Source of the DNA: Selaginella tamariscina
Taxonomy: Eukaryota > Streptophyta > Lycopodiopsida > Selaginellales > Selaginellaceae
Length of the DNA: 64,000 nucleotides
NCBI GenBank assembly: GCA_003024785.1
Contig: PUQB01000077.1
Location: 124,001-188,000, forward strand
Direction of reading: 5' to 3'
Below, in pieces: positions 4,420 through 64,000 of this stretch; the stretch's first letter is position 1; the number at the start of each line of letters is the position of its first letter. The notes under the pieces were generated by a model. It did no database searches. It saw nothing but the letters and a program-made list of their open reading frames with translations, and was not told the DNA's origin. Made by a program: the position numbers and the translations under genes.

Positions 4420-6789
4420 TCTTTTAAAACACGTTTCGACACACACACATGCATGAGACGATTATTCTTTATGACTGGAGTAAAGTATGTTTCGTGGGCC
4501 GCCGGATACGAAGACATTTTGCACATAGTAATTTGCAGAGGTATATGCCAGTCGAGAAAGGGGCTTAGTGTGAAGTCCTGGTTGTTTCGGATATGGCACA
4601 AGAAGAGGCTCCAGTTCATGTATTGGTAGTCCCATTGGCACTCCAAGGACATACTAATCCCATTCTGCACCTGCTCTCCCGTCTTTCTTCGCCACATTTC
4701 CTTAGTACGATTGTTATTCCTGAGGAAGATGTAGCCAGAGTGCAGAGATCACTCCCCAACCAAGACTTCATACGGATTGTCTCGATCCCGCTTTCGGTTT
4801 TCGACGTTGGTGCCAGCTTGAAGACCTGCTCAAACACTATGATGGCACACCTGGATGCAATGGAACGGGCCAGAGACGGATTGTACAACCTGCTCAAGGA
4901 GGAGGTAGTGCAGGAGGTATGTGGTCTGCTCCCTTCTCTGGGCTTCTGGCGGACTGGTTTATTCACATGGGCCAGGATCTTGCTAACAAGCTCGGCATTC
5001 CAAGGATTGGCTTGTGGACCAGCGGAGCTGCCAGTCTGATAATTAGCTCTTCATTGGAGTGCTTGATTTCTGATGGCATCGTACCAGTCACCTCTACAGG
5101 TCAGTATTCGGTGCGCGTGGGTGGGTGTGTTTTGTTTGACTTTAAGGTGTTTAATGCGCAGTAACTGACTTCGATGCATCATCGTTCTTAATTGCTTTGT
5201 GTTTGTTCAGAAGCAGAAAAATCCCCATCAACCACATACCAAGCATCCGCAATCTTCACAGGGACGAACTTCCACACTCCATCCTGTCGCCAGCAGACCC
5301 ATCAGATCTGCAGAAGAGAGTCCGCATTGCTTCTCGTAACAGCGAAGCAAAATGCATACTCATAAACTCCGTTGAAGAGCTGGAAGGCGACATCGTAGAC
5401 GGACTGAATGAGATGTTTCCATGTACAAGCTTTCTTCCCATCGGCCCCTTATACCCAGTGCGTTTCTATCCCGCGAGAAGGGCAGCAGTTTCAAAGGCGG
5501 GGAAGGTCTCTGGAAAGAAGACATGCATTGCATCGCCTGGCTCGACCAACAGGAGCCGTCCTCGTGCTGTATAATATCTTTTGGGAGCTTAGCAACAATG
5601 TCCAGGGAACAGATACAGCAGCTTGCACTTGGCCTTGAGTCGAGTAAGCAACCATTTCTGGGTGGTGAGGCCCGACCTTATCGCGAAAGACGGTGAACAA
5701 GCACAAGACTTCTTCAATGGCTTCGTTGACAGAACAAAAAAACAAGGACTTATCATTTCATGGGCTCCGCAACTTCAGGTCTCTCTCTCTCTCCTCTCTC
5801 TCTCACACACACACACACACAACACACACCACACACGGTATTATTGAACTCGTTAATGTTACAGGTACTGAAACATGGATCGGTAGGGGGGTTCCTGACA
5901 CACTGTGGCTGGAACTCGACTCTGGAAGCACTCTCCTGTGGGATGCCCATGCTTTGCTGGCCTATTCTTGCCGAGCAGAACACACACGCAAGCTGTGTGT
6001 GCACGATTGGAAGGTTGGTTTTCAAGTTTTTCAAAGGGCTCACGAGGCTTGGTTGGCAAGGACGAGGTTGAGAAGGTAATCAAGAAGCTTATGGTGGAGG
6101 ATTCTGGGAAGGTGTTAAAGAAGAATGCTGTGGAACTTGGGGAGAAGATTAGAAGAAGCGTCGACAAAGGCGGATCGTTTGATAAGAACTTGAACAAACT
6201 CACTGCCTTGTTAAGTGCTTGATATGCATTGTTTAAGGTCTGTCTCTGTAGACCGATATATAATAAACAGGTCTCGTTCTGAGCCCAGAATTGCTTAACC
6301 CAGTAACCATGAATTGTGGGAAGCTTCAAACAGCAGTATGCATCGGCATTGAACAGATGCAAATCTATTGGAGAGGTAACCCGGCTACGAACGTTACTCA
6401 AGGAGCAGTGCAGGACAGTCCACATTCCTGGGAAACCATCTTGTACAAATGTATGGAGAATGCGGAAGCGTGTATGATGCATTGTCCGTTTTTGATTCAC
6501 TCGAGAGCAGGAACATCTTCTCATGGACTATAATGGTGGGAGCATATGCCCAGAACCGGCACTTAGAGGAGGCCAAAAGATGCTTCGACAGAATGCCAGA
6601 ACAGAGCGCTATTTCGTGTATACATGATGGATGCATATGCACAGCAGGCAAATCCGTGACGCCAGGATGGTCTTTCAGAAGATGACATATAGAAGCATCG
6701 TTTCTTGGAACTGCCTCATCTCTGCATTTGCCCTGAACGGGCATTTCCATGATGCGTTTCATCTGTACAAAACTATGCTAGACACTGAT
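4420..6789 (+). repeat. Right arm of large inverted duplication (UGT + PPR)
   Basis: Mirror copy of 1-2427. It differs mainly by single-base indels, by simple-repeat length and by lacking the 5' tandem duplication. The PPR portion continues past 6789 to about 7800, beyond what the left arm shows inside this window. Confidence 0.88.
4593..6222 (+). CDS. Family-1 UDP-glycosyltransferase, right inverted copy (frameshifted)
   Basis: Mirror paralogue of the UGT at 574-2203 with the same three-exon structure: 4593-5099, 5211-5778, 5865-6222; introns 5100-5210 and 5779-5864. The start [10 protein letters not shown], the GHTNP motif and the PSPG box (ISWAPQLQ / [18 protein letters not shown]) are present. 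Breaks unique to this copy are a TG insertion in exon 1 (about 4920), a one-base loss at the start of exon 2 (about 5220), losses around 5450 and 5570, and changes at 5985-6030. The left copy is intact at those points, so each copy can be read through with the help of the other. More damaged than the left copy, therefore more likely a pseudogene. Enzyme family is certain, substrate unknown. Confidence 0.75.
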
Positions 6790-27913: not shown

Positions 27914-28452
27914 TTAGCAGCAGCGGAGAGTGCCTTCAATGTTTTCAATGCAGTCGTCAAGATCACGAACTGAAGGCACACCACCGCAAGTAGCTCTCAC
28001 GTTGACACCTCCGTAGCTGATGTTGATACAAGATGCAACAAAGTTGCTTGAACAGTCGAGCTGGCCAGTGGTGCTATTGAATCCAACACACTGGTTTACA
28101 TCGATGGAGGCTGGGAATGTTACTCCTGATGAATTTGCGCATCTTGCAGACATGATATTACCACTGAAGGAGATATTAGTGCAGGACTGCGAGAAGTTGC
28201 AAGCCTACAAATGAAGACAAATGTCATTATTTCTTTCCAAACAAAATGAAGACCTTGTGTGTGTGACATTATGTCACGTTCTTTGTTTTATGTTACATTA
28301 AATTCACTACAACATATTATAGACTTCATGAACAAGACAGAATACTATACTTAACCTGGTTGAAACAACCCTAAACTGTGTATACTTACTTTTGCGTGGC
28401 CGATAACAGCTAACAGAATGCTCAAGATCACTAAAGCACGAATGGGAGCCAT
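27914..28452 (-). CDS. Secreted cyanovirin-N homology (CVNH) protein 1
   Basis: CVNH proteins are small carbohydrate-binding lectins made of two tandem sequence repeats; known eukaryotic ones occur in ferns and fungi. Exon 1 28390-28452 encodes the signal peptide MAPIRALVILSILLAVIGHA; exon 2 27914-28204 encodes the whole domain after a 185-bp intron. Total 117 residues, frame intact. Repeat 1 runs CNFSQSCTNISFSGNIMSARC to the NQCVG segment; repeat 2 SNFVASCINISYGGVNVRATC to CIENIEGTLRCC. The two half-domains each keep the FxxSC...L/VxAxC pattern and there are multiple cysteines suited to an extracellular protein. N-linked sequons (NIS, NST) are visible. The conserved TATA promoter is at 28525. 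A close duplicate lies 3.2 kb away at 31084-31657 in the same orientation. Confidence 0.92.
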
Positions 28453-31083: not shown

Positions 31084-31657
31084 TTAGCAGCAGCGGAGAG
31101 TGCCTTCAATGTTTTCAATGCACTCGTCAAGATTACGAACTGAAACCACACCACCGCAAGTAGCTCTCACGTTGATACCTTCGAATCTGACGTTGTTACA
31201 AGATGCAACAAAGTTGCTTGAACAGTCGAGCTGGCCAGTGGTGCTGTTGACGCCAACACACTGGTTTACATTGATGGAAGTTGGGAATGTTACTCCTGAT
31301 GAATTTGCACATCTTGCAGACATGATATTACCACTGAAGGAGATATCAGTGCAGGACTGAGAGAAGTTGCAAGCCTACAAATGAAAATAAATGTCATTAT
31401 TTCTTTCCAAACAAAGTAAAGACCCTGTGTATGTGTGCCATTAAGTCGTTTTCTTTGTATATGCTTACATTAAACACTACAACGTATTATAGACTTCATG
31501 AAAAGAATGTAAGCTGCAGAGAATACTAGGCCTATATAACCTAGACATATATACTATACTTAATCTGGTTGAAACAACCGTAAACTGTACTTACTTTAGC
31601 GTAGCCGATAACAGCTAACAGAACGCTCAAGATCACAAAAGCACGAATGGGAGCCAT
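31084..31657 (-). CDS. Secreted cyanovirin-N homology (CVNH) protein 2
   Basis: Close tandem paralogue of CVNH1. Exon 1 31595-31657 encodes signal peptide MAPIRAFVILSVLLAVIGYA; exon 2 31084-31374 encodes the full two-repeat domain (CNFSQSCTDISFSGNIMSARC; SNFVASCNNVRFEGINVRATC; CIENIEGTLRCC). 117 residues, frame intact; intron 220 bp. Duplication also covers about 250 bp downstream (a block starting near 30840, matching 27685) and the promoter. Replacements relative to CVNH1 cluster in the second half-domain (INISYGG to NNVRFEG), where the carbohydrate site would lie. Secretion is inferred from the signal peptide; ligand unknown. Confidence 0.92.
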
Positions 31658-37381: not shown

Positions 37382-37958
37382 ATGGCCTCCATTGGTGCTT
37401 TCGTGATCTTGAGCATGCTCTTAACTGTTGGCAGCTATGCTCAAGTACGTATACACAGATTAGATTCTTCATATGGTTGTTTCCAGATTTAAGTGTATTA
37501 TAAATGTCTTATATGTATTGTAAAGTAATTTCAGCAGTTCCCTTTCTTTAGTGGTTGTTCATGAGATCTCTATATAAGTTGTAGTGTTTAGTGTAGAGTC
37601 CTTATCCATAAAACACGTGCGCATCTATTTGTTTTGACACATTTCTTTCAATTTGCAGGTTCCTTGCAACTTCTCACAGACTTGCGTTAATCTCACCTCC
37701 AGTGGTACTATTCTACGTGCAGACTGTTTCGTCGTCGATTCAACAGGACAAAGACTCACAAGCTCCATCAACATAAACGATTGTGTTGGGCTCGATCGCA
37801 CTGCTGGCCAGCTTGACTGTTCAAGCAACGTAATTGGATCTTGTAGCAGTGTCCGCATCGAAGGTACCAACGTGAAAGCTATCTGCAGTGGTGCGGAATT
37901 GGTTCGTGATCTTAACTTATGCATTGGAAATGTTAATGGCAAGCTCACGTGCTGCTAA
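37382..37958 (+). CDS. Secreted cyanovirin-N homology (CVNH) protein 3
   Basis: Exon 1 37382-37444 encodes signal peptide MASIGAFVILSMLLTVGSYA; exon 2 37659-37958 encodes the domain (intron 214 bp, acceptor TTTGCAG). 120 residues, frame intact. First repeat CNFSQTCVNLTSSGTILRADC to DCVGLDRTAGQLDC; second SNVIGSCSSVRIEGTNVKAIC to CIGNVNGKLTCC. The L-x-A-x-C and NxxGxL elements match the CVNH consensus better than in CVNH1/2. It is the only plus-strand member and belongs to a subgroup with relic 3 (34473-35067). Predicted extracellular lectin; ligand unknown. Confidence 0.93.
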
Positions 37959-40153: not shown

Positions 40154-41998
40154 TGTCAGAGTTTTAACCCAAAGGGCTAACACGTGGTAACACGTGGCTG
40201 CCAGGTGGCCATTCGGCGTCATTACCCTATGTGATCAACGCTAAGTTTCCCAGAACAACCCCAACGACCCCTAGGGTTAGACTCTAATGCCCAAGTGGAC
40301 AAGAGACTTAGGGTTTAGCCTAAGTCTCCCTAGAATGTCTGCCCCCAGAACCCTTGAGGGATAACCCTAGTTGACTTAGGGTTTTGCCTAAGTCTCCCTA
40401 GAATGTCTGCCCCCAAAACCCTTGAGGGATAACCCTAGTTGACTTAGGGTTTTGCCTAAGTCTCCCTAGAGTGTCTGCCCCCAAAACCCTTGAGGGATAA
40501 CCCTAGTTGACTTAGGGTCTTGCCCTAGAAGACCTAGACAGGCTCATGCCCTAACCCCCATCAAGGAGACGTGTGTTCCACACATACCCCCGTGACAGAG
40601 CTAAGGCATCGTCACTTACCCCTTGAGGAATCACCCTCATCCGGGAGTACAACCCCTTTAGGGCAACAAGGGGTGCCTGAACCACGACTAACCCCTAAGG
40701 GTTTGAGTGGCCAAGTCATACCCTAGACCTAGGGTTAGTACTTAGTAAAGACACGAGTGTGCGCCGTAGGCGGACACAAGTGTTCTGCTAAGCAAACTCC
40801 CTAAGGCTAGGTTTGGGATAACCCTAAGCACATGACCTTGCGAGTGCCTCACGAAAGGGCTCCTGCTAATATGTTTAGGTTGTTCAACCCTTAAATTCCA
40901 AGGAGAACACTCCCCTAGCCAAGTGTGCCAAAGCACACCTAGTTATGAGACCTAACCTCCCTTGAGCGGATGCCCAAGACTTAGCACCCTAGTGCAAGCA
41001 CAAGCATGTCTGTTTGCTAAAGTATCCAACCCCTTGGCAACAAGCTCATGACATAACCCCAAAGGGGCATGCCTTAGGCGTTGTACCATGTGACGTTTAG
41101 CCCAGTGTCACATCTCCATGTGACGCTGCCTTCCCTGATGTGGGCTATCATGCCATAGCCCTTAGATTCAAGAGTTGCACCAAGTGCCACAAACGTGGCT
41201 CCTAAATGCCGACTCTAGAACCCCTCAATGAACCCTCAGGAACCAAGTAACATGAACTTGTCAAACAAGATCCCACGCTCAGTTGCACAAGGACACGGAT
41301 GTGCCTTGCTTGGCCGTGAGTGCTACACCTAGCTTGACGTGGAGGAGGAGGTTGGAGACAAGCCTCAACCTCTGCCTCTTGGAACGTGCATTCCGACAAG
41401 ACCTTCCAGGCATGGATTCGCCAACATTAAGGGTAAGTTACTCCGAAGGTGGGACGTACCCCTGGCATCTGGAAGTTAGGGCGGCACAACAGAGGGTTGT
41501 GCCTTAACGACACAAGTTAGGAGCTTGCACTGGGAGAAGAGTAACGAGCTCAGTCATGAACCCAGGAACCCTCACTCCTATATACTACCTTATTTATGTG
41601 ACAGAGCCCCCCCCCTGTTTTCCTGTTTACATAAGTGGGCTAGCACTGAAATCTCATTCCCAGAGGGAACATACTTGGTGAGTTATCCATCGACCCCTAA
41701 ACCCTAACTGTCAAACCTGGGGGTATTTCTAAGCATATCCGACACGTCGAACTCACCGAACTAGCCATTAACCCAACCAGGACACAGAAAACGAGGGTAA
41801 GAGTTTTCTAAAAGGTAAGTGCTACCTTCGCTTAGAGTTTCTCGAGATATCTAAGGACAGCCGGCCGGACTACCCCTAAACACCTAAGTGCACTAAGCGG
41901 GGCTGTTTCTCACTACATCTAGGGCTTGTCAACATAGTACAGTAGGTAACAACAGTCAACGTCCAAAGTAAAGAGGAGTCATAGTAAAAACTATGACA
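40154..41998 (-). repeat. 3' LTR of the LARD-like element
   Basis: 1845 bp with TG...CA ends. Contains about three tandem units of about 69 bp (around 40310-40515) built of GACTTAGGGTTTTGCCTAAG and CCCTTGAGGGATAACCCTAG; unit number differs from the partner LTR, which has two (around 45940-46080). The difference accounts for most of the length gap between the two LTRs. Confidence 0.9.
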
Positions 41999-45782: not shown

Positions 45783-47537
45783 TGTCAGAGTTTTAACCCA
45801 AAGGGCCAACACGTGGCAACACGTGGCTGCCAGGTGGCCATTCGGCGTCATCACCCTGTGTGAGCAACGCTAAGTTTCCCAGAACAACCCCAACGACCCT
45901 AGGGTTAGACTCTAATGCCCAAGTGGACAGGAGACTTAGGGTTTAGCCTAAGTCTCCCTAGAATGTCTGCCCCCAGAACCCTTGAGGGATAACCCTAGTT
46001 GACTTAGGGTTTAGCCTAAGTCTCCCTAGAGTGTCTACCCCCAAAACCCTTGAGGGATAACCCTAGTTGACTTAGGGTCTTGCCCTAGAAGACCTAGACA
46101 GGCTCATGCCCTAACCCCCATCAAGGAGACGTGTGTTCCACACATACCCCTGACAGAGCTAAGGCATCGTCACTTACCCCTTGAGGAATCACCCTCATCC
46201 GGGAGTACAACCCCTTTAGGGCACAAGGGGTACCCTGAACCACGACTAACCCCTAAGGGTTTGAGTGGCCAAGTCATACCTAGACCTAGGGTTAGTACTT
46301 AGTGAGACACGAGTGTGCGCCGTAGGCGGACACGAGTGTTCTGCTAAGCAAACTCCCTAAGGCTAGGTTTGGGATAACCCTAAGCACATGACCTTGCGAG
46401 TGCCTCACGAAAGGGCTCCTGCTAACATGTTTAGGTTGTTCAACCCTTGAATTCCAAGGAGAACACTCCCCTAGCCAAGTGCCAAAGCACACCTAGTTAT
46501 GAGACCTAACCTCCCTTGAGCGGATGCCCAAGGCTTAGCACCCTAGTGCAAGCACAAGCATGTCTGTTTGCTAAAGTATCCAACCCCTTAGCAACAAGCT
46601 CATGACATAACCCCAAAGGGCATGGTTGTACGTGTTTAGCCCAGTGTCACATCTCCATGTGACGCTGCCTTCCCTGATGTGGGCTATCATGCATAGCCCT
46701 TAGATTCAAAATTGCACCAAGTGCCACAAACGTGGCTCCTAAATGCCGACTCTAGAACCCCTCAATGAACCCTCAGGAACCAAGTAACATGAACCTGTCA
46801 AACAAGATCCCACGCTCACAGTTGCACAAGGACACGGATGTGCCTTGCTTGGCCGTGAGTGCTACACCTAGCTTGACGTGGAGGAGGAGGTTGGAGACAA
46901 GCCTCAACCTCTGCCTCTTGGAACGTGCATTCCGACAAGACCTCCTAGGCATGGATTCGCCAACGTTAAGGGTAAGTTACCCCGAAGGTGGGACGTACCC
47001 CTGGCATCTGGAAGTTAGGGCGGCACAACAGAGGGTTGTGCCTTAACGACACAAGCTAGGAGCTTGCACCGGGAGAAGAGTAATGAGCTCAGTCATGAAC
47101 CCAGGAACCCTCACTCCTATATACTACCTTATTTATGTGATAGAGCCCCCCCCCCGTTTTCCTATTTACATAAGTGGGCTAGCACTGAAATCTCATTCCC
47201 AGAGGGAACATACTTGGTGAGTTATCCATCGACCCCTAAACCCTAACTTGTCAAACCTGGGGGTATTTCTAAGCATATTCGACACGTAACTCACCGAAAC
47301 TAGCCATTAACCCAACCAGGACACAGAAAACGAGGGTAAGAGTTTTCTAGAAGGTAAGTGCTACCTTCGCTTAGAGTTTCTCGAGATATCAAAGGACAGC
47401 CGGCCGGACTACCCCTAAACACCTAAGTGCACTAAGCGGGGCTGTTTCTCACTACATCTAGGGCTTGTCAACATAGTACAGTAGGTAACAACAGTCAACG
47501 TCCAAAGTAAAGAGGAGTCATAGTAAAAACTATGACA
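45783..47537 (-). repeat. 5' LTR of the LARD-like element
   Basis: 1755 bp, homologous to 40154-41998, with small indels and substitutions that indicate some age. The primer-binding-site-like TTGGTACCGGAGCC follows immediately on the minus strand (45769-45782). Confidence 0.9.
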
Positions 47538-48260: not shown

Positions 48261-50860
48261 ATGGTTGATTTTGAACACTTTCAATGCGAGCACCAAATGT
48301 TGCTTCATGAACTGGCCACTTTGCGCCAAGTGGTCACCGATCTGCAAGGTTCCACCAATGCGGCACATGCAGCTGCCGATGCATTCTCCAAGGCTGCTGC
48401 GCATGCTCTCTCTTAAGCATCGGTGGTTCCCTCTCCATCGAACTTTTTCGGAGCCAAAGATCAGCATGCCAGAAAAGTTCAGTGACAATCGTGCTGATTT
48501 TCAAGGTTTTCTGAATCAGATCCGGCTCTTGATCTGCATGCAACCACGCCTACTCGACTGATGCATAAAAGGTTGGCCTTTTGGCATCCTTATTAATTAT
48601 ATCTCCACGGGCTTGGGTTGCCCCCTTGCTGGAGCGTGATGACCCATTAATGAAAGACTTTGAAGGTTTTGTGGTTGCCTTTGAAGCCTGTTTTGAAGAT
48701 CCTGATAAGTACCGTTCATCATGCACGAAGTTACAAAAGCTCACCCAAGGATCCCAATCAGCTTCCGTCTATGCATCTGAATTTCAGCAACTTTGCACGA
48801 ACATTCTGTCATAGTTTTTATTATGACTCCTCTTTTACTTTGGACGTTGACAGTTGTTACCTACTGTACTATGTTGATAAGCCCTAGGTGTAGAAGAAAC
48901 AGGCCCACTTAGTGTACTTGGATATCTAGTGATGGTCTGGCCGGGTGTCATTAGGTATTTGCAAAAAACTCTGGGCGAAGCTAGCACTTCCATCTAAAAA
49001 ACTCTTACCTTAGTTTTTCGTGTCCCAGTTGGATTAATGGCTAGTTCCAGTGAGTTCAGCATGTCGAATATGCTTAGAAATACCCCCATGTTTGACAAGT
49101 TAGGTTTAGGGGTCGATGGATAACTCACCAAGTATGTTCCCTCTGGGAATGAGATTTCATTGCTAGCCCACTTATGTAAACAGGAAAACAGGGGGGGGCC
49201 TCTGTCACATAAATAAGTAGTATATAGGAGTGAGGGTTTCTGGGTTCATGACTGAGCTCGTTACTCTTCTCCCGGTGCAAGCTCTAGCTTGTGTCGTCAA
49301 GGCACAACCCTCTGTTGTGCCGCCCTAACTTCCAGTTGCTAGGGGTACGTCCCACCTTTGAGGTAACTTACCCTTAACGTTGGCGAATCCATGCCTGGGA
49401 GGTCTTGTGAGAATGCACGTTCCAAGAGGCAGAGGTAGAGGCTTGTCTGCAGCCTCCTCCTCCATGTCAAGCTAGGTGTAGCACTCACGGCCAAGCAAGG
49501 CACATTCGTGTCCTTGTCCAACTGTGGGCGTGGGATCTTGTTTGACAGGTTCACATTACCAGTTCCTGAGGGTTCTAGAGTTGGCATTTAGGAGCCACGT
49601 TTGTGGCACTTGGTGCAACTCTTGAATCTAAGGGCTATGGCATGATAGCCCACATCGGGAAAGGCAGTGTCATATGGAGATGTGACACTGGGCTAAACGT
49701 CACGTGGTACAACACCCGAGGCACGCCCTTTAGGGTTATGTCATAGGCTTGTCGCCAAGGGGTTGGATACTTTAGCAAATAGACATGCTTGTGCTTGCAC
49801 TAGGGTGCTAAGCCTTGGGCAACCGCTCAAGGGAAGTTAAGTCTCATAACTAGGTGTGCTTTTGCACACTTGGCTAGGGGTGTTCTCCTTAGAATTCAAG
49901 GGTTGAACAACCTAAGCGTGTTAGTAGGAGCCCTTTCGTGAGGCACTCGTAAGGTCATGTGCTTAGGGTTATCCCAAATCTAGCCTTAGGGAGTTTGCTT
50001 AGCAGAATACTCGTGTCCGCCTTTGGCGCACACTCGTGTCCTCACTAAGTACTAGCCCTAGGTCTAGGGTATGACTTGGTCACTCAAACCCTTAGGGGCT
50101 AGTCGTGGTTCAAGGTACCCCTTGTCGCCCTAAAGGGGTTGTACTCCCGGATGAGGGTGATTCCTCAAGGGGTAAGTGACAATGCCTTAGCTTGTCATGG
50201 GGGTATGTGTGGAACATGCGTCTCCTTGATGAGGGTTGGGGCATGAGCCTGTCTAGGTCTTCTAGGGCAAGACTCTAAGTCAACTAGGGTTATCCCTCAA
50301 GGGTTTTGGGGGCAGACACTCTAGGGAGACTTAGGCTAAACCCTAAGTCAACTAGGGTTATCCCTCAAGGGTTTTGGGGTAGACACTCTAGGGAGACTTA
50401 GGCTAAACCCTAAGTCAACTAGGGTTATCCCTCAAGGGTTCTGAGGGCAGACATTCTAGGGAGACTTAGGCTAAACCCTAAGTCTCTTGTCCACTTGGGC
50501 ATTAGAGTCTAACCCTAGGGGTCGTTGGGGTTATTTTGGGAAACTTAACGTTGCTCACACAGGGTGATGACGCTGAATGGCCACCTGGCAGCCACGTGTT
50601 GCCATGTGTTGGTCCTTTGGGTTAAAACCCTGACACATTTCATGAGACGAGACTGCATTGATCGAACACTTCCGTTTTGGGTTGAGAAATGACGTGAAGG
50701 ACCTTCTCCTTACGTTATAGAATGCCCAAATATTAACGGAGATCATGCAACAAGCCGTTCGCTGCAACAATTGTTTGTTCGAGCGTCGTCAGGAAAGATC
50801 CCGTCAACAGTTCTTGCAAACCAATCCTACAGTTGTGGTACATGTTCCTGCAACACCTTC
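48261..50860 (+). mobile_element. Ty3/gypsy gag relic, split by a solo LTR
   Basis: A coiled N-terminal stretch MVDFEHFQCEHQMLLHELAT, then the capsid-type sequence MPEKFSDNRADFQGFLNQIR, VGLLASLLIISPRAWVAPLL, DPLMKDFEGFVVAFEACFED and QGSQSASVYASEFQQL. The frame has stops and shifts. After the solo LTR the gag continues at 50636 with FRFGLRNDVKDLLLTL and MQQAVRCNNCLFERRQERSR until 50860, where copy B of the methyltransferase-like repeat begins. The capsid style is that of chromovirus-like gypsy elements found in mosses and fungi. Confidence 0.82.
48807..50635 (+). mobile_element. Solo LTR (LARD family) inside gag
   Basis: 1829 bp, TGTCATAG...CCTGACA, with flanking CATTC/CATTT (one mismatch in a 5-bp duplication). 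Gag homology resumes directly after it. Orientation is opposite to the LTRs at 40154-47537. A TATA-like AGTATATAGG (about 49219) lies in the middle and is shared by all LTR copies. Contains three of the about 69-bp internal units (about 50280-50480). Confidence 0.9.
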
Positions 50861-54661: not shown

Positions 54662-57600
54662 TCACTCATCATCTGATGACTCATATGATCTCTCTTCTGC
54701 TGACTCATCTGATGACTCGTCGTTGTGCTCCACGGACTTCTCTGTAACAACATCCTCGTCGTTTCGAGAAGGTGGATCCTGGTCTCCATCGTTGTCGCTA
54801 GCCAAAGGCAAATCCTGTGCTTCTGTTTCCATGGCCCTCTTCCACTCATCAAAAGGAGTAATCATGGAAACAACTTGATCATCCCCACCACCTTCAACTG
54901 CTGTAACACTTGGAATGACCTTCCTGAAGACATCTCTGGCTGCTAAAACCAGATCCTTGTTGATGTCGATTCCATAACCATGTCTCCCTGTGTGAAAAGC
55001 TGCAAGAATACTAGCACCGGTTCCCACTGTTAGATCCACGACAGTTCCACCAGGCTTTGTGAGCTTCTCCAATAGCATCGCAAACAACTTGGGAGATTTC
55101 GGGCCAATTAAAATCTGAAAGTTACAATATTAAAACATGAGAAAAACAAACAACATTATACCATGGGAGCTGGAAATCTTCTGGCTCATCAAAAAGAAGA
55201 GTGTAGCGAGTGTCCAAGATCTCCTTGTTCTTGGCAACCTTAGAGTAGGGGAAACCAAAAATACACATGGCAATGATGCTTTTCTGAAAAAACAAACATT
55301 AAAAAATGACATTCTCATAAAGAAGAATTACCTTTCTAGAGAAACGGTATCCCCATGACTTTGTCGTGTGCACATAACTCATCTGCAGAAACTTTAGCTT
55401 GCAAGTTTCTGCAGTGTTCTTCAAAGCTAGAACATCATCCGGTAGCACAAACACTACCACATGGCCAGCTCTGTCTAATATCCCGAAAGCAAGGTTCACC
55501 AAGTTCTTCAGCAAAGCATCCGAGAACTTCGTGTATTGATTCACCATCCCGCCTGCCTCAGCAACGCATCCGGTAGGCGGGTCGATGACAACGAGATCAA
55601 CAGCTCCCTGGATGCATTTTGGTGAAGGCTTCGCACCAAACACATGAATAGTCCAACTTGACTTGTGACTCACGATCCAATCCTCAAGCTCCTTCAATCC
55701 TGACGGAAAAGGCCTTCCGGCTTTGAAGTACTGGACTGCAAGGTTCTCTGAATCTGCATGAATGATTTCCCAGCTTCCATTTCCCTTCTCAGGCATCACC
55801 ATCCTCAACATATCATCTTCTTCCAATCCAGCTGAGATGAAGGATGGGGCTGAAGAAGAAGCCTGTCCCTTGCTGACCTTGCTCGCCGATCTAGCATACT
55901 TGATATCCATCTTCACATGGAGCTTCCTTGCAACACTGTCGTTCTTCCATAATAGCTCTCGCCGATCATCCTTGTGTATCTTATAGCTGGCCATCTCCCA
56001 TTCGGGACAGTCACCAGGAAGGAAATCCCCAGAAAGGACAGTGTTCCACTTTGTAATCACTGATATCACGTAACAACCGGCTCCACATGCTAAAATCCTT
56101 GGTAACATCCATCCACTCTTTGAAATCTTCAGGGAGTGCATCGTTTTTCCATTTTAAAAACCTGTAAAAATAGATAAAAATCTGTAAAGAAACAAAAAAA
56201 AAAACTTGCCTGAATGCCATTCTTTTTGCAGATTTTTCCAGCTCAAATAGTCAAGAAGGTGGAATTGTCGCACCGAACTCCTTGTTCTCGAGCATGTTTT
56301 GGTACATATCCAACTTAATTTCATTGTGCATCTTCGTATACCATGTCATGAACTCCTCTACATGCTCGACCAAAAGCTCTTTAGCTGCCTCCGCGACCTG
56401 GCACAATAAAACGAATAAAAATGAAAAATATAAATATTAAATTACATGGAACCAGTAAGTAAAGATGTGCAAAAACTTGATGAAGTCCTTGTCAGGCCAG
56501 CCGGTGACACCTTCCTTCTTGTCTTTCTCCGTCATGTTCACCAACTTCTCAAGAACGCCACGTTCTTGAATGTGCACAAGCTTCCCAAGGATATCAACCT
56601 TGACGTTGGAAGGAAGTTGGGACTTCGCGAGCATTTGAAGCTTCTCCAGAGTTATTTGCTTCGTTGATGGTTTGATAGTGATATCTGTGATCGCCTTAAA
56701 CCAATCTTCGCCGACCGCCGGATCAGCAATGGTGAGGAATTTGTTCATCCGAACTGTGAATGTCTTGTAAACGCTGGAGAGGATCTGAGATTCTGTCTGG
56801 TTTGGTTTTCTGTTCGCAAGTTTTGTAGCGATTTGTCGCTTCAGTTGATTCTGCAAAAGAAACCGAAAATAAAAAAACAATCAAAAGAAGAAGAAAAGAT
56901 TACCTCCCAAAAAATCTTCACCAATGTCGTCTTTGGATACTCGTACCAAACGTCTTCTTTCCTGTTCGATCTCCATACTTCCACAGCTTTTCTATCTTCC
57001 TCCGGCATCCCGCGAAGAACATGATCAGTAGAAAGATCTGCAGACTTCACACAACAATTCCATAAGAACTGCAAGGTGTAAATGATTGTTGTAGGAACCA
57101 CACGAGCAGTTGCTCTGCAAAACAAAAACATTTATTTAGTATTTAAATAATGAAACAAACAAGTTACTTACTCATTCAACCGATTGCAAGCAGCGATTAG
57201 TCTCTTCTCCTCTTGCACTGTGGATGCTATGAGTGTTGCACGTACACGCAAAGTCCATTTCAAACCTGGCTCTTCAGCAAGCAAAGTGTTCAAAGAACCC
57301 GACGATGATTCCCATCCCACACCAGAAACTTTGCATCTTTCAGAAATCGATACCACGTAGAAAATGCTGGCTTATGCAAATCCGCTTCAAACTCTCTATC
57401 GACCTGTGCTTCTGACTCATTCCAACTTCGGCTTTCGTCTGCACTCAACTGTGGTCCGAAAGATAATGTGAACACTGACGTCTCCTGGTAAAATCCTTCA
57501 GCTCTAATCCATCCAACAAGGTCTTTCACGCCGTCCTTAGTGACATTCCTCAAACGTTGGTGTGGGAGCAACCTGTGAACCGGGATACGCGGAGGCTCAC

Positions 57601-57778
57601 CAAGCTCAACTGGAATGTAGTGGTCTCGTCCTTGTAGCGATGTGTCAATATCCGTGTCATACCGAATAACAAGATCCTGAAGAAGCTTGGATGGAGCCTC
57701 AAGTGTCAGCCGCTTCGGAATTGCATATGATTCGGCAACATCCTCAGGAGCATCCAATTTCCTCTTCTTATTGAACAT
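54662..57778 (-). CDS. ParB/sulfiredoxin-like domain fused to DNA N4/N6 amino-methyltransferase
   Basis: Seven exons: 57172-57778, 56904-57114, 56446-56850, 56210-56397, 55332-56161, 55162-55283, 54662-55114; the fourth intron has a GC donor in the classical CAG/GCAAGT context. Sum 2816 nt, about 938 residues. Residues about 64-165 resemble ParB-N/Srx: RIPVHRLLPHQRL, DLVGWIRAEGF, then FLVWDGNHRRVL with the box-II-type DGNHR. A helical middle region of unknown function follows. The C-terminal third has methyltransferase motif IV (DLVVIDPPTG) before motif I (TVVDLTVGTGASILAAF, GYGIDINKDL), the order of beta/N4-type amino-methyltransferases. A Ser/Glu/Asp tail ends it. Defects: frame breaks near 57293 and 56020 and at the exon 6/7 joint, plus in-frame TGA at 56251-56253. 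DPPT instead of DPPY/F/W may alter activity. Substrate base is unknown. Confidence 0.72.
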
Positions 57779-58083
57779 TTTACTACCAAGATCAATGTCC
57801 GTACTTCCTCTGCATTACCGTGTTCTGCAGAGCTTCCTGCGATCCCTATTTCTAGGCATCCATTCACTCACCACAGCATGTTCATCAATGACTTGCAAAC
57901 TATCCACAGGTTCATTGTTTGTCGCATCATCTCTTCGTGTTGCAGTTGTTGCTTGGCGCCTCAGCCTCCTTTCTTGCCACGAGGTTTTGAAGCCATATCT
58001 GCAAGAGCTTCTTGGACGATATGTTCCTGAAGTGTCAAAGTCTTGTATTTATCTCGCAGTCTCTTACTCTGCCTTTGCCTCAT
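57779..58083 (-). other. Possible N-terminal extension of the ParB-methyltransferase gene
   Basis: Upstream of the ATG at 57778 the minus strand reads MRQRQSKRLRDKYKTLTLQE (ATG at 58083), then after a one-base shift RRQATTATRRDDATNNEPVD and VVSEWMPRNRDRRKLCRTR, then in phase GSTDIDLGSK into MFNKK. This basic, charged stretch looks protein-like, but two frame breaks and a TAA separate it from the main frame. It may be the true N-terminus with sequence errors. Confidence 0.4.
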
Positions 58084-58811
58084 TTACAATTACAACAACT
58101 GATAAGAGTGTGTGTGTGAGTTGTTTTTAATTTATAAACACACATTTACTATATATGTATACCTATCAATATATATATAGACACACACGCACACACACAT
58201 ATTTATACATGTGTAATGTTGTTTGTGTGTGCTCACTATATAATGTTCCTTGTGTATGTGTGTAATGTTGCTTATGTTGTGTGTGTGCAATGTTGTTTGT
58301 GTTTTGTGATGTCTGTGTGAGAATGCAAGTTGTAACTAAAAGGGCATGGCTATAGTCCCATTTCCTAATAATTAGCAATTTAGCTATTTAATTAGCATTT
58401 CTAATATTAAAGGAATATTCTTTAGAATATATGTTTGAAAGAGAATATTCTTTAGAATATTTATTTTGTATTTCTACCCTTTAATAATTATAGCATTCAT
58501 TGAACAAAAATTAATAACATTATAAAAGTAGAATGTATTAAATTATATAATATATTGCCTAATATAACAATTAAGGAAGAGCATAGGAGGTACATTATAT
58601 AAATATTGATGTTGTTATTAAAATATAATATTTAAATATAACATATTAATTAAAAATTTGTAGTAGTAATAATATATATAAATCCTATAATATAGTCAAT
58701 CTTCCATATCATTTTTGAAATTATATAGTTAAGTATACAATTTGGTACTATTATTAAAGATTTATAATAATTATGAATATAAATATATGATTTTATAATT
58801 TTGTAATTGCT
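58084..58811. other. Intergenic AT- and TG-rich DNA
   Basis: Contains CA/TG-rich low complexity (58170-58330) and two copies of GAATATTCTTTAGAATAT 30 bp apart (58413 and 58443). No gene. It separates the 3' end of the transposase-like gene from the 5' end of the methyltransferase gene, both on the minus strand. Confidence 0.5.
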
Positions 58812-61800
58812 TTAAGCTTCAAAACATACATTCCCTTGCAGTTTTGTTAATCGTGACTTTATCAACGCTTCTTGACATCCACCCATATCGAATGGATTAA
58901 CATTTATATAAACATGCTGGGTCTTTTTGATTGGGAGACCATGTTTTCTCTAGGCATCCATTATATCTTTCGCTCTCCTTCTCGTTCGCCTTTTTTTGTT
59001 TTGAACCATGCAACCTTAACAATACTATTTTTGTGATACTTCAGGTGTGTCGATAATTTGACCCATCCAAATAGGCTGATTATATGACGCATCTGGAGTA
59101 ATGAGAACCTCATTAGTTTTGAAGATCCTTGCAGCAATCAAGTATGCTTTAGGTTTTTTCCTTTATCCAACAAAGTGTGGGTTTGCACTTCCACATCACT
59201 ACTGGCTTCTATTGTCGTCTATGCTCAGTGATGTCATTTCAATCTCCTCTCGCCACCTGTTTTTAGGCCAGAAAGGTGTTGCAATTCTTACTTGTGACAG
59301 TAGGCCCTTCCAACTCTCGAACAACAGTCTCCCAATAGTTGACCACATGTTATATAGTTCTGAGTAACCAGTTGCCTTATCAGAATTCTCTTGGCACGAT
59401 TTTTGAACCCATGCCACATATTTTTGATGCCATCAATAATAACCTCTTGTTCCTTGAGCTGGGCACTCAATGGAATAGGGTCTGGTTGTCCTTCTGGGAG
59501 AAGTGGCTTTCCATCCTCTCCACTTTTGAAGAGCATTAAGCCCTCTTTCGGTAACCACTCCTGCTCTGATGGCCGTAACTTGTACTGCATAATAGGTATA
59601 CCATCTCGTATGGAGAAAAAGAATTGTAGCGGCACAAGGTGACCAACTAAAGAATCACTCCCTTCTTTTATATACTCCTTGAGAAATTTTTTGAAGTCTG
59701 GCACCTCAGTCACAAGCAAAGCACAACTTTTTTTGGAGATGCAATTTTCAAAAAGATTCATCATATGTGGTAAGGTAAGTGCACTTGTCCTTTTTGTAGA
59801 GTTGGAGACCTTGCTGAAGAACGCATCAATATCTTCATGAGTGTGACCAACCATAAGGAAACTGAGCGTGATTGTTTCAAACACACCTTTGGCAACAAGC
59901 ATTGACAAGTATGCTAGCACATATCTAGAAAATAAAAGTAAGTATGAGCTTGAGAAACCCTTAAGTAAAATGATTTACCTATTTTTGTTCTCGCCTGCAC
60001 AATTATCCATCTGTAAAAGCAAATGACGAGGAAGCTTATTTGATGTTGAGGACACATGTACACTATTTGAGCTAGATCCCTCCACTGAACCTGAACTCTC
60101 AACAGGGCCATCTGTTTTTTGTGCAGGTTGCTGACAATGCCTCTCATATTCCCAAGTAGCCTCAAGTGCAGACGTGTTCATGAGAGCATTATGTAAAGGT
60201 TGAAGGTGTTGTTTCTTCACTTTGAGATCACTGATAGGACTTGTCTGTGAGTGGGCTTCAAGGTTTCTGAAACACATGGCCAACGACCCAATAGTGAAAT
60301 TGGAGTCGCTAGACCAATGTGGAAGTGAAAAGTGTCCATATGACTCACAACCGTGTCCATGTGTTAGCACACCTGTTAAAGAAATCGGAAGTTTCATGAC
60401 ATTTCCAAGGCACTTTGGTGTTGCAAAGAGCTTTGGAATGCTGGTCTTTGAATGATCCATCTTGTCATGGATCAAGCACAGGTACTCTGATGGGCGTGAC
60501 ACAGAAAGCATGCGGTGTGCATAGTACTGAGACCGACAAGTTTGTTGTGCAATCATGTGGGCCTCCATCTTCCTTTGAATGGTAGTGATCTCCACCAAGG
60601 TTTTTGCACAAGCCTCTGCAGCCTTCAATGATGTACAAGTGTCACACTTAGAAAAGCTAGAGTGTTTTGCAATCTCACATCCTTAAAATGAGTATTCCAT
60701 ATGTTGTTGAAGGTACCAGTGCAGATTGCTTGGAGCCCCATCAAGCTGAGGCACTTGTTCACATGTTCACACAGTTTCAATTGAGTGTAGATTGAAGGTA
60801 AAACCTTGAGATTTTCCCTGACCCCTGCATTTGTGGTTCGGCATTTGTGAGGCATCCTGTCTGCATTTGCTTCCACAAAAGCCTTGAGTATCTCTATGGC
60901 TGCCATGATGTGAGAGCGGGTTTTGACCAAGCCAGTGTTCCCATGAACTGAGGTTCGCGCTCCATCTAGCCACTCATCCCTCCGACGGTAGAACGTGGTC
61001 TTTGGGATCCCGTATATACTGTACCAAGCTTTGAAGCAGATGGCCACCTTATTAAATACCATGGATGTACTCTGATAACCTGTGTCCGAGGCCATTCCAT
61101 CAATACACCCAGTTAGTGCAGCATATACAAACTCATGCCTTTGCTTTTGGGTGAGCANATACGAAAGACATGTCTACATTGGGTAATTTCATTCCGGTCT
61201 GCCATCTGACAACACTTCTTCTTGCAACAGTCAATCGTGGAAATGCTCGTAACACTTTCGGAAGATGTAGGATCCATCTTTACCCTCTTGCTGAAACTTG
61301 CAGGGGAAGATCTACAACCCATGAATCGCCTTTTTCTTACAATAGGACCAATGCAAGGAACCTCTTCAAATATGAGTTGTTCTTCCGGGTTGTTATTATT
61401 GAAATCCAACCCAGAATATGTTGAACCATCTTGCCGTCTTAATTCAGATGTTCGCCACCTCACGAGGGATCCAGGATACAATGTGCCATTAGGTGAAACC
61501 TCTGTCACAACTACACCCACGAAGTCGGACCCTAGTTTCTCTTCTGACACTGCTTCCATTGGATTTATAGCTGTGATGATGCCTCTTCCGACTTCAATCT
61601 CACGAAGAAAGAGAATCACCTCATCCATCACAGCAGGCAAGCCATCATCTGGTAAACTCGTGCTACTATTTGTTTGTGACTCTGCATATTCTGTGTCAGC
61701 CTTGACTTCATCCAAATTCCACAATACAGGAGAACCCTCCTCAAATTCCATTCCCAGAACCTCAACATGCTTGTAAATGGTGTTCACCCATACGTACACA

Positions 61801-61916
61801 CAAGATCCTTGGGAAATATTGTGACATGATGCATTATTATCTCGAACTTCCACAGTTCCAGTGCCAACTATCTCGTTGTTCCGAAGAAGACATACTTTAT
61901 CTCCAGTATTAAACAT
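58812..61916 (-). CDS. DDE-type transposase-like protein (DUF8039-like + DUF7869-like)
   Basis: Exon 59979-61916 starts after an acceptor at 61923 (ATG 61916) and joins a second exon from 59924 over a 54-bp intron (NR/YVLAYL). N-terminus GDKVCLLRNNEIVGTGTVEV...GSPVLWNLDEV resembles the DUF8039 module of plant transposons. Next a DNA-binding-like GIPKTTFYRRRDEWLDGART, a Cys pair KCDTC, then a DUF7869-type core with likely acidic catalytic residues: LIHDKMDHSKTSIP, LLLQMDNCAGENKNRYVLAY, FLMVGHTHEDIDAFF. The 3' part has a chromatin-module-like VLITPDASYNQPIWMGQIID and SIVKVAWFKTKKGE. Breaks: an A run one base short (about 60672), the undetermined base at 61158, and shifts or stops at about 59400-59200 and 59030. 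Stop taken at 58812. It lies between the palindrome array and the methyltransferase gene, same strand as the latter. Confidence 0.7.
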
Positions 61917-62069
61917 ATTGTCCTGCACATAAATAATTGTATTATTTATGATATCTGTTTATGCAATATTTCTAAGAAATCTGAATTACGGTTACTTAAT
62001 AATATGCATATGCAATAATACATAATTATGTTTAGAGATAATATCTCATGTTTGATTAATACAACTGAT

Positions 62070-63106
62070 GGGCGGGATTAATCCCGCCCACGAATCCCTC
62101 CGACGAGGAACGGTCGGCGGGATTAATCCCGCCGCCGACTCAACCCTTCGGAGAGAGTCGGCGGGATTAATCCCGCCTTGGACTCCCTCCGACAAGGAAG
62201 AGCCGGCGGGATTAATCCCGCCGCCTCTTCCTCCTCGGGGGAGTCCGGCGGGATTAATCCCCCGACTCTCTCCGACGAGGAAGGGAGTCCGGCGGGATTA
62301 ATCCCGCCGCCGACTCAACCCCTTCGGAGAGAGCGGCGGGATTAATCCCGCCTTGGACTCCCTCCGACAAGGAAGAGTCGGCGGGATTAATCCCGCCGCC
62401 TCTTCCTCCGGGGGAGTCCGGCGGGATTAATCCCGCCGACTCTCTCGAGGAAGGGAGTCCGGCGGGATTAATCCCGCCGCCGACTCAACCCCTTCGGAGA
62501 GAGTCGGCGGGATTAATCCCGCCTTGGACTCCCTCCGACAAGGAAGATCGGCGGGATTAATCCCGCCGCCTCTTCCTCCGACGAGGAAGGGAGTCCGGCG
62601 GGATTAATCCCGCCGACTCCCTCCGCGAGGAGAGTCGGCGGGATTAATCCCGCCGGACTCCCTTCCTCGTCGGAGGAAGAGGCGGTCGGGATTAATCCCG
62701 CCGGCTCTTCCTTGTCGGAGGGAGTCCAAGGCGGGATTAATCCCGCCCACAATTCTTACGACGGGGAATGGGTGGCGGGATTAAACCCGCACATAACTCT
62801 CTCCAAAACTATGATTTCAAAGAGATTCGGGATAAATCCTGTCCCCAAATCTTTAAAACAGGGAAGTGGTGGCGAGATTAATCCCGCCACCCCTTCCCTG
62901 CCTCCTAAAATGGTTGGCGGGATTAATCCCGCCGACAACTCTTTCTAATAAATTCTGGTAACTCTTCATCAGTTGAGAAGGTTATCGACGGGATTAATCC
63001 CGCCACTCTTTTCAGTGGCGGAGAAGCATTGCCCGGAGATGGTGGCGGGATTAATCCCGCCACTTCTTCAAGAGGCGAAAAAGAAATGGCCGGATTAATC
63101 CCGCCG
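62070..63106. repeat. Array of 23 palindromes GGCGGGATTAATCCCGCC
   Basis: Sixteen perfect copies and seven with one to several changes, starting at 62071, 62116, 62160, 62205, 62247, 62291, 62335, 62380, 62420, 62461, 62506, 62550, 62597, 62637, 62685, 62730, 62774, 62827, 62871, 62916, 62987, 63044 and 63088. Spacing is mostly 44-45 bp, about four helical turns. The middle is built of higher-order units of four palindromes (about 170-175 bp, beginning 62116, 62291, 62461). Spacers are themselves inverted repeats of GACTCCCTCCG/CGGAGGGAGTC type. GC-rich in an AT-rich surrounding. It lies directly upstream of the transposase-like gene; a donor-like ACAAGTAAGTAT at about 63271 on the minus strand suggests the array may be in its first intron. 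Confidence 0.95.
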
Positions 63107-64000
63107 CCCCGGTTAACCTAGAATATTAAGTTAAAAGGATATTTAAACGTGATAAATCCCTAACGGAATATATTATAATCCTAATGCATTTCTAAACCCC
63201 TAAATTGTAATTTTAAGAGAGAATGTAAGAGAGTGAATCTTAATAAGTATTTTTAAATTTGTTTATAATACTTACTTGTAAACTGAAGGCGCCGTGCTTT
63301 CCTATAAAGAATAGCACCCAATTTAATCTCGCTCCTGAGATGATCACTATGAAGAAAAAAGAAGATCTACAGAGTGAAAAATACAGAAATGAAGAAACCC
63401 TTGCCGGAGAAAGAACCAGATCTGAATTTGAGTGGGAAATTAAATGCATTTTCAAATTTACATGTCAGACCGACAATACATATGTCAGAAATTCAAATTT
63501 TTTAAAAAGAACAGAAAATAAAATTTAAGATGAGTTGACACAAATATCCGACACTCTGACATATATACTCTCCAGTTCCAATGAGTATTTTAAAATTGCA
63601 TTTAATGTTATTCAAGTGATTCAAGCTGTTTAATATTACGAAATTTTAGACTATATTCTACATTCTTAGTATTCAAGTATATTTATATTATATATATATA
63701 TAAATATATACTTATACAATAAATAAATTGATATATTATTATGTATCATTAAAATATATTCATAGTCTGTTTATTATTATTATTTTCTTAATTACTCGAG
63801 TATTTAGTTTTCATTTCCTAGTATCAATGGGATATTCTTTAATATTTTATTAATATTTGAAGAATATTCTAATATTAAACCTGATTATCATAATTAAATT
63901 AGTCTTGTTCTTAATTATTGCAGTAATTATTCTACATTTGTATATATTAATGGGATTTTCTCAATTAATTTGTTATTATTTCAAGAATATTCATGTGTTA
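63107..64000. other. AT-rich DNA beyond the palindrome array
   Basis: No gene is supported. A possible non-coding first exon of the transposase-like gene ends at the donor at about 63272 (minus). An open frame at 63259-63528 (plus) has no recognisable domain. GAATATTC motifs recur near 63872 and 63985. The outer end of the putative element may lie here or beyond the window. Confidence 0.4.

Follow-up and report, generated by a model that had tools for sequence, protein, structure and literature searches.

A palindrome array in Selaginella tamariscina, probably an internal binding platform of a 15-kb Sola-like DNA transposon

What is the role of a dense array of palindromes at the 5' side of a transposase-like gene in a lycophyte? 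A 64,000-nucleotide stretch of the Selaginella tamariscina genome (GenBank assembly GCA_003024785.1, contig PUQB01000077.1, positions 124,001 to 188,000; hereafter the window) contains 23 copies of the 18-bp palindrome GGCGGGATTAATCCCGCC at 62071-63105 (array 1), beside a gene with a DUF7869 domain. Our analysis suggests that a Sola-like DNA transposon of 15 kb probably carries two internal binding platforms for a regulating protein, and that array 1 is one of them.

Analysis of array 1 confirmed the dense array of 23 palindromes described in the initial annotation. Sixteen copies are exact, four have one mismatch, two have two and one (at 62826) has five; at three or fewer mismatches, 22 palindromes were found in the window and none in 100 shuffles. 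The half-site GGCGGGATTA (at most one mismatch) matched 44 times in the 64 kb, 42 of them inside array 1, with 1.6 expected. The start-to-start distance is 40-48 bp up to the sixteenth copy and 44-71 bp beyond it. A spacing of mostly 44-45 bp had been proposed, and the median was 43-45 bp in all 17 palindrome arrays examined; strict helical phasing, proposed along with it, was not found in array 1 (vector length 0.03-0.17 at periods of 10-11 bp). The higher-order unit, claimed at about 170 bp, measured about 175 bp and is present 3.6 times in 62071-62702, and one segment is inverted with 100% complementarity (62566-62619 and 62632-62685). The spacers, also described as inverted repeats, lacked significant self-complementarity when taken singly (2/22 at p<0.05, uncorrected), unlike array 1 taken whole, which is self-complementary.

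The array lies inside an element of 15,151 bp that spans 58323-73473 in window numbering, the window covering its left 5.7 kb. The element ends with ATGCANGTTGTAACTAAA and its inverse, an end motif that occurs 1526 + 1484 times, and in two other element copies the match to the window begins at 58322/58323 and continues to the right end. A 4-bp target duplication was exact in seven of 12 copies, against six of 132 mismatched pairs, and was absent from the other five copies; the window's own element bears the duplication GAGA. From left to right the element consists of the left end, the leftward DUF7869 gene, array 1, an AT-rich centre, array 2, a rightward gene and the right end. Array 2 (66834-68267), 3.7 kb from array 1, has 17 sites at two or fewer mismatches, seven of them exact. 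Each array is located 5' of one of two divergent genes, and both are internal, 3.7 and 5.2 kb away from the element ends. The parallel drawn earlier with plant DNA transposons was borne out, and the subterminal position it implied was not. The features within the window are as follows.

58319-58322: left-hand GAGA of the 4-bp target duplication; its right-hand counterpart immediately follows the right end (L027)
58323-64000: transposon, left part; left end ATGCAAGTTGTAACTAAA... at 58323, right end beyond the window at position 73473 (L027 base 73)
59288-61916, minus strand: DUF7869 (transposase-like) gene, start codon at 61916
62071-63105: array 1, palindrome GGCGGGATTAATCCCGCC in 23 copies (16 exact)
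62071-62747: left block of array 1, younger and GC-rich, 16 copies, with the higher-order unit of about 175 bp, partly inverted
62774-63105: right block of array 1, older, seven copies, common to other element copies
63106-64000: AT-rich central region between the arrays, running on to 66833 beyond the window
63267-63279, minus strand: candidate splice donor ACAA/GTAAGT (63275), identical in 9/9 aligned copies

The element ends were not among the 25 longest of the 289 inverted-repeat pairs in the window. Alignment of left against right sequence as a search for ends was rejected: the AT-rich matches were judged to reflect composition, the best, an inverted match at E 2e-10, reached 62.5% across 323 columns, and direct matching gave E 2e-7 (without a shuffle control).

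The assembly searched comprises 300,702,823 bases in 1391 contigs and contains 27,128 exact copies of the 18-mer, with none for the reversed control. On contig C1 the 18-mer places are clustered, mostly as pairs a few kb apart. Among 100 places listed, sequence was compared for 95: 91 fall in stretches aligning with the part of the window's element that holds DUF7869, and four in a variant (L025). At least 300 DUF7869 matches were found in the assembly (4250 candidates, 150 scored) and none in 14 control genomes, and each of the six matches listed for contig C1 has a palindrome array 2.1-2.4 kb away. Because 18-mer places and DUF7869 matches co-locate, array 1 is no ordinary satellite independent of DUF7869 genes, and the link proposed in the initial annotation held. 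The 27,128 palindromes mark a high-copy DNA transposon present in many hundreds of copies. DUF7869, a domain of unknown function, is now tied to a high-copy transposon with defined ends, and the palindrome is a ready probe for it.

Elsewhere, the exact 18-mer matched once among viral contigs (about one expected, by rough estimate), the array 1 region matched no plasmid, and 21 pattern matches for DUF7869 in viral contigs yielded no relatives. Paired inner 12-mers occurred in seven stretches of prokaryote genomes, with different flanks. Closely spaced GGGATTAATCCC palindromes were also present in unrelated bacterial contigs (L002-L008). Open-licence paper text contained no occurrence of the 18-mer and no mention of DUF7869, PF25273 or its GHTHED motif.

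The DUF7869 gene is transposase-like. Its relatives have a predicted DDE/D transposase core with an integrase-like fold, a likeness of the overall fold. Of 102 relatives, 53 have three D motifs in order and 49 fall outside the strict pattern used; the gap between the second and third acidic residues is 41 residues, and a longer relative has Tudor-like and BAH-like additions. The DUF7869 sequence profile gave no match to solved structures. In the window copy, frame changes were judged by eye near 61158 (an N), 60690 and 59360, and an intron probably precedes the GHTHEDID part. Several matches elsewhere in the assembly span stop-free frames of more than 1000 residues, so copies that look intact are present, in contrast to the broken one in the window. 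The rightward gene has an NIF phosphatase domain match (E 1.4e-8). The donor at 63275 and an AG at 61923 (minus-strand sense), which lies 6 nt ahead of the DUF7869 start codon and was not listed by the splice-site filter, would put array 1 inside a 5' intron; there is also an alternative acceptor at 63117. From sequence, the arrays could be promoter, intron or leader.

Because the arrays lie at the 5' sides of divergent genes and far from the ends, control of the central promoter region is favored over end recognition. The platforms flank the AT-rich central region, probably the home of both divergent promoters. A dimeric protein would bind each palindrome, and it would most likely be encoded by the element, either by the DUF7869 (transposase) gene or by the other gene. 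Dense sites about 44 bp apart would give high local occupancy, by which the central promoter region would be switched or shielded. Protein binding, the identity of the binder and an effect on expression or silencing rather than on end cutting are what we infer from this arrangement. A more specific version is tentative and rather unlikely: the element-encoded protein would coat the CpG-bearing palindromes to either side of the divergent promoters and keep this hub open against silencing; the transposase, through reader domains of Tudor-like and BAH-like type, is a possible coating protein. If this were true, a 15-kb transposon could by such means reach many hundreds of copies. The element would make counter-silencing by internal arrays directly testable outside Arabidopsis.

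Arrays 1 and 2 have a common core and a spacing of about 44 bp, and do not share spacers. Across four elements, identity between array 1 and array 2 was 0.83-0.89 for cores, 0.275-0.295 for arms and 0.26-0.27 for shuffled sequence, the core value being inflated because sites were picked for resembling the core. Units of the older right block, compared leave-one-out, agreed at 116/126 core positions and 84/182 arm positions; this replaced an earlier test (116/126 against 82/182), the left-block arm consensus fitting left arms at only 53%. Core CpGs were kept at 12 of 14 in this block, and the flank beyond 63106 is not CpG-poor (observed/expected 0.79). The claim that the palindrome is kept while the right-hand spacers are unrelated was sustained for the cores and needs amendment for the arms, which have a weak common symmetric motif (6.9 bits; 2000 shuffles gave 3.7 ± 0.5).

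Besides the choice of sites by core resemblance, several results weigh against a binding platform. In the older block, eight other copies differed from the window at 49/820 core positions (6.0%), 164/1726 spacer positions (9.5%) and 87/1435 flank positions (6.1%), with the weak site at 62826 (18/136) counted apart and one copy (L018) partly misaligned. Between copies, cores are thus kept no better than the noncoding flank and moderately better than spacers (p = 0.003, an optimistic value because units and copies are related). Since the rates of core, spacer and flank are close, inserted copies drift nearly evenly; the rates are as expected if most copies drift neutrally and are no proof of present-day selection. 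Better conservation of cores than of spacers, as claimed initially, is therefore clear between units of one array and moderate between copies, and the finding named in advance as contrary, spacers as conserved as palindromes in other copies, was nearly reached. If there was constraint, it operated during array building, in the active lineage. Foldseek alone, moreover, yielded nothing at E ≤ 0.001.

The small excess of core conservation between copies would also suit a selfish, functionless repeat, multiplied by slippage and template switching inside an abundant element. The higher-order and inverted repeats of array 1 are consistent with this, as is its copy number, which varies between elements that are closely related (the window has 23 sites; L019 and L023 have 15 and 16 at five or fewer mismatches). 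It does not account for two arrays with unrelated arms having the same core and spacing, nor for cores outlasting arms within the old block, and we consider it unlikely. A host transcription-factor array captured by the element, acting as enhancer or silencer of the divergent genes, would explain the location 5' of both genes and the preserved symmetric core. The candidate named earlier, E2F, fails, because none of the 23 copies matches WTTSSCSS (a consensus taken from a literature search listing) and the two matches found fall in spacers; such a capture is improbable. Doubt is slightly greater still for an end-recognition array like that suggested for the subterminal repeats of CACTA, in which the transposase binds the palindromes to build a cutting complex: array 1 adjoins a transposase-like gene, and the ends of soybean Tgmt* are described in part of PMC2613891 as carrying dense palindrome-forming repeats, but the arrays here are internal by several kb. 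Very unlikely is a source of hairpin RNA, with array transcripts folding into long double-stranded RNA that feeds silencing, since the strong folding observed (62060-62755, minus strand, -639.8 kcal/mol, where 20 shuffles averaged -334; real spacers outfolding shuffled ones in three blocks at z -6.2, -10.1 and -20.1, 0/60 shuffles each) is expected of any array of palindromic units and leaves unexplained why two arrays whose spacers are unrelated have one and the same core.

Comparison with known systems places the internal-platform reading among plant transposons. In the passage of PMC10741241 on the Sola superfamily, its members have a DDD-type transposase, a 4-bp target duplication and inverted ends, some exceed 15 kb, and they are found in moss and are rare in flowering plants; the passage does not mention palindrome arrays. 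The element's DDD motifs, 4-bp duplication, terminal inverted repeats and size appear to fit this superfamily, the nearest by element type, a likeness judged from the description in that passage. The nearest working parallel would be VANDAL/VANC, in which, according to the part of PMC10398659 consulted, proteins of the element bind tandem repeats that carry a motif and remove methylation, and tandem repeats of short motifs in the noncoding parts expand and contract. The present element differs in having a perfect 18-bp palindrome in two arrays, and no VANC-like gene was recognized in it, without a search aimed at VANC.

The soybean CACTA element Tgmt* likewise has densely packed repeats that can form palindromes and include parts rich in GC and parts rich in AT (PMC2613891, in part). 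Membership in CACTA (En/Spm) was rejected: the ends are ATGCANGTTGTAAC and not CACTA, the duplication is of 4 bp, the transposase family is another, and the arrays are not subterminal as in TNPA-type binding. A scan of four gene pieces found DUF7869 only and no Tnp2/TnpD domain; weak TNP1/En-Spm (Transposase_23) matches were seen in a window piece (E 0.096) and in three of 56 relatives (best E 6.6e-4). At 63462-63562, in the element centre, ATGTCAGA occurs three times in both orientations, one copy adjoining CCGACACTCTGA, which we take to be similar to the maize TNPA-binding 12-mer.

Clusters of parS palindromes are read by ParB. Array 1 resembles them in its clustered perfect palindromes, and a stretch of the rightward gene is ParB-like, by eye only; one rightward-gene frame and one neighbor-gene frame had no counterpart in Pfam, ParB included, with the threshold relaxed to E 10, and the rightward-gene frame gave no match to solved structures. 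The predicted catalytic fold of DUF7869 relatives is like that of Tc1/mariner transposases (Mos1, SETMAR) and retroviral integrases, from which they differ in the 41-residue gap and the additions of the longer relative. The TA duplication that is the rule in mariner (PMC10741241, same passage) was not seen, the element's duplication being 4 bp and variable.

Just outside the element's left end, an intron-bearing gene (54662-58130, minus strand) has an N-terminus that is ParB-like by eye and a C-terminal N6/N4 methylase match just below the Pfam cut-off (26.4 against 26.7 bits); no homologue was found at E ≤ 1e-3 among 7996 scored. In variant L025 (1-3001), a copy of this gene (matching window 56558-58094) is immediately next to a palindrome array and to the rightward gene of the element, and DUF7869 was not present in the 3 kb examined.

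Elsewhere in the window, glycosyltransferase and PPR fragments lie within an inverted duplication formed by 1-2231 and 4566-6788 (95.9% identity over 2250 bp). The glycosyltransferase has its nearest match in Selaginella (48%, best of 4 hits at E ≤ 1e-80), which, like the three CVNH frames below, fits a seed-free vascular plant as the likely host. Three frames with a CVNH (cyanovirin-N homology) domain occur at 27917-28204 and 31087-31374 (minus strand) and 37638-37955 (plus strand). Tandem repeats of 68 bp are present at 40305-40524, 45933-46078 and 50275-50484, inside a dispersed repeat of 1.6-1.9 kb.
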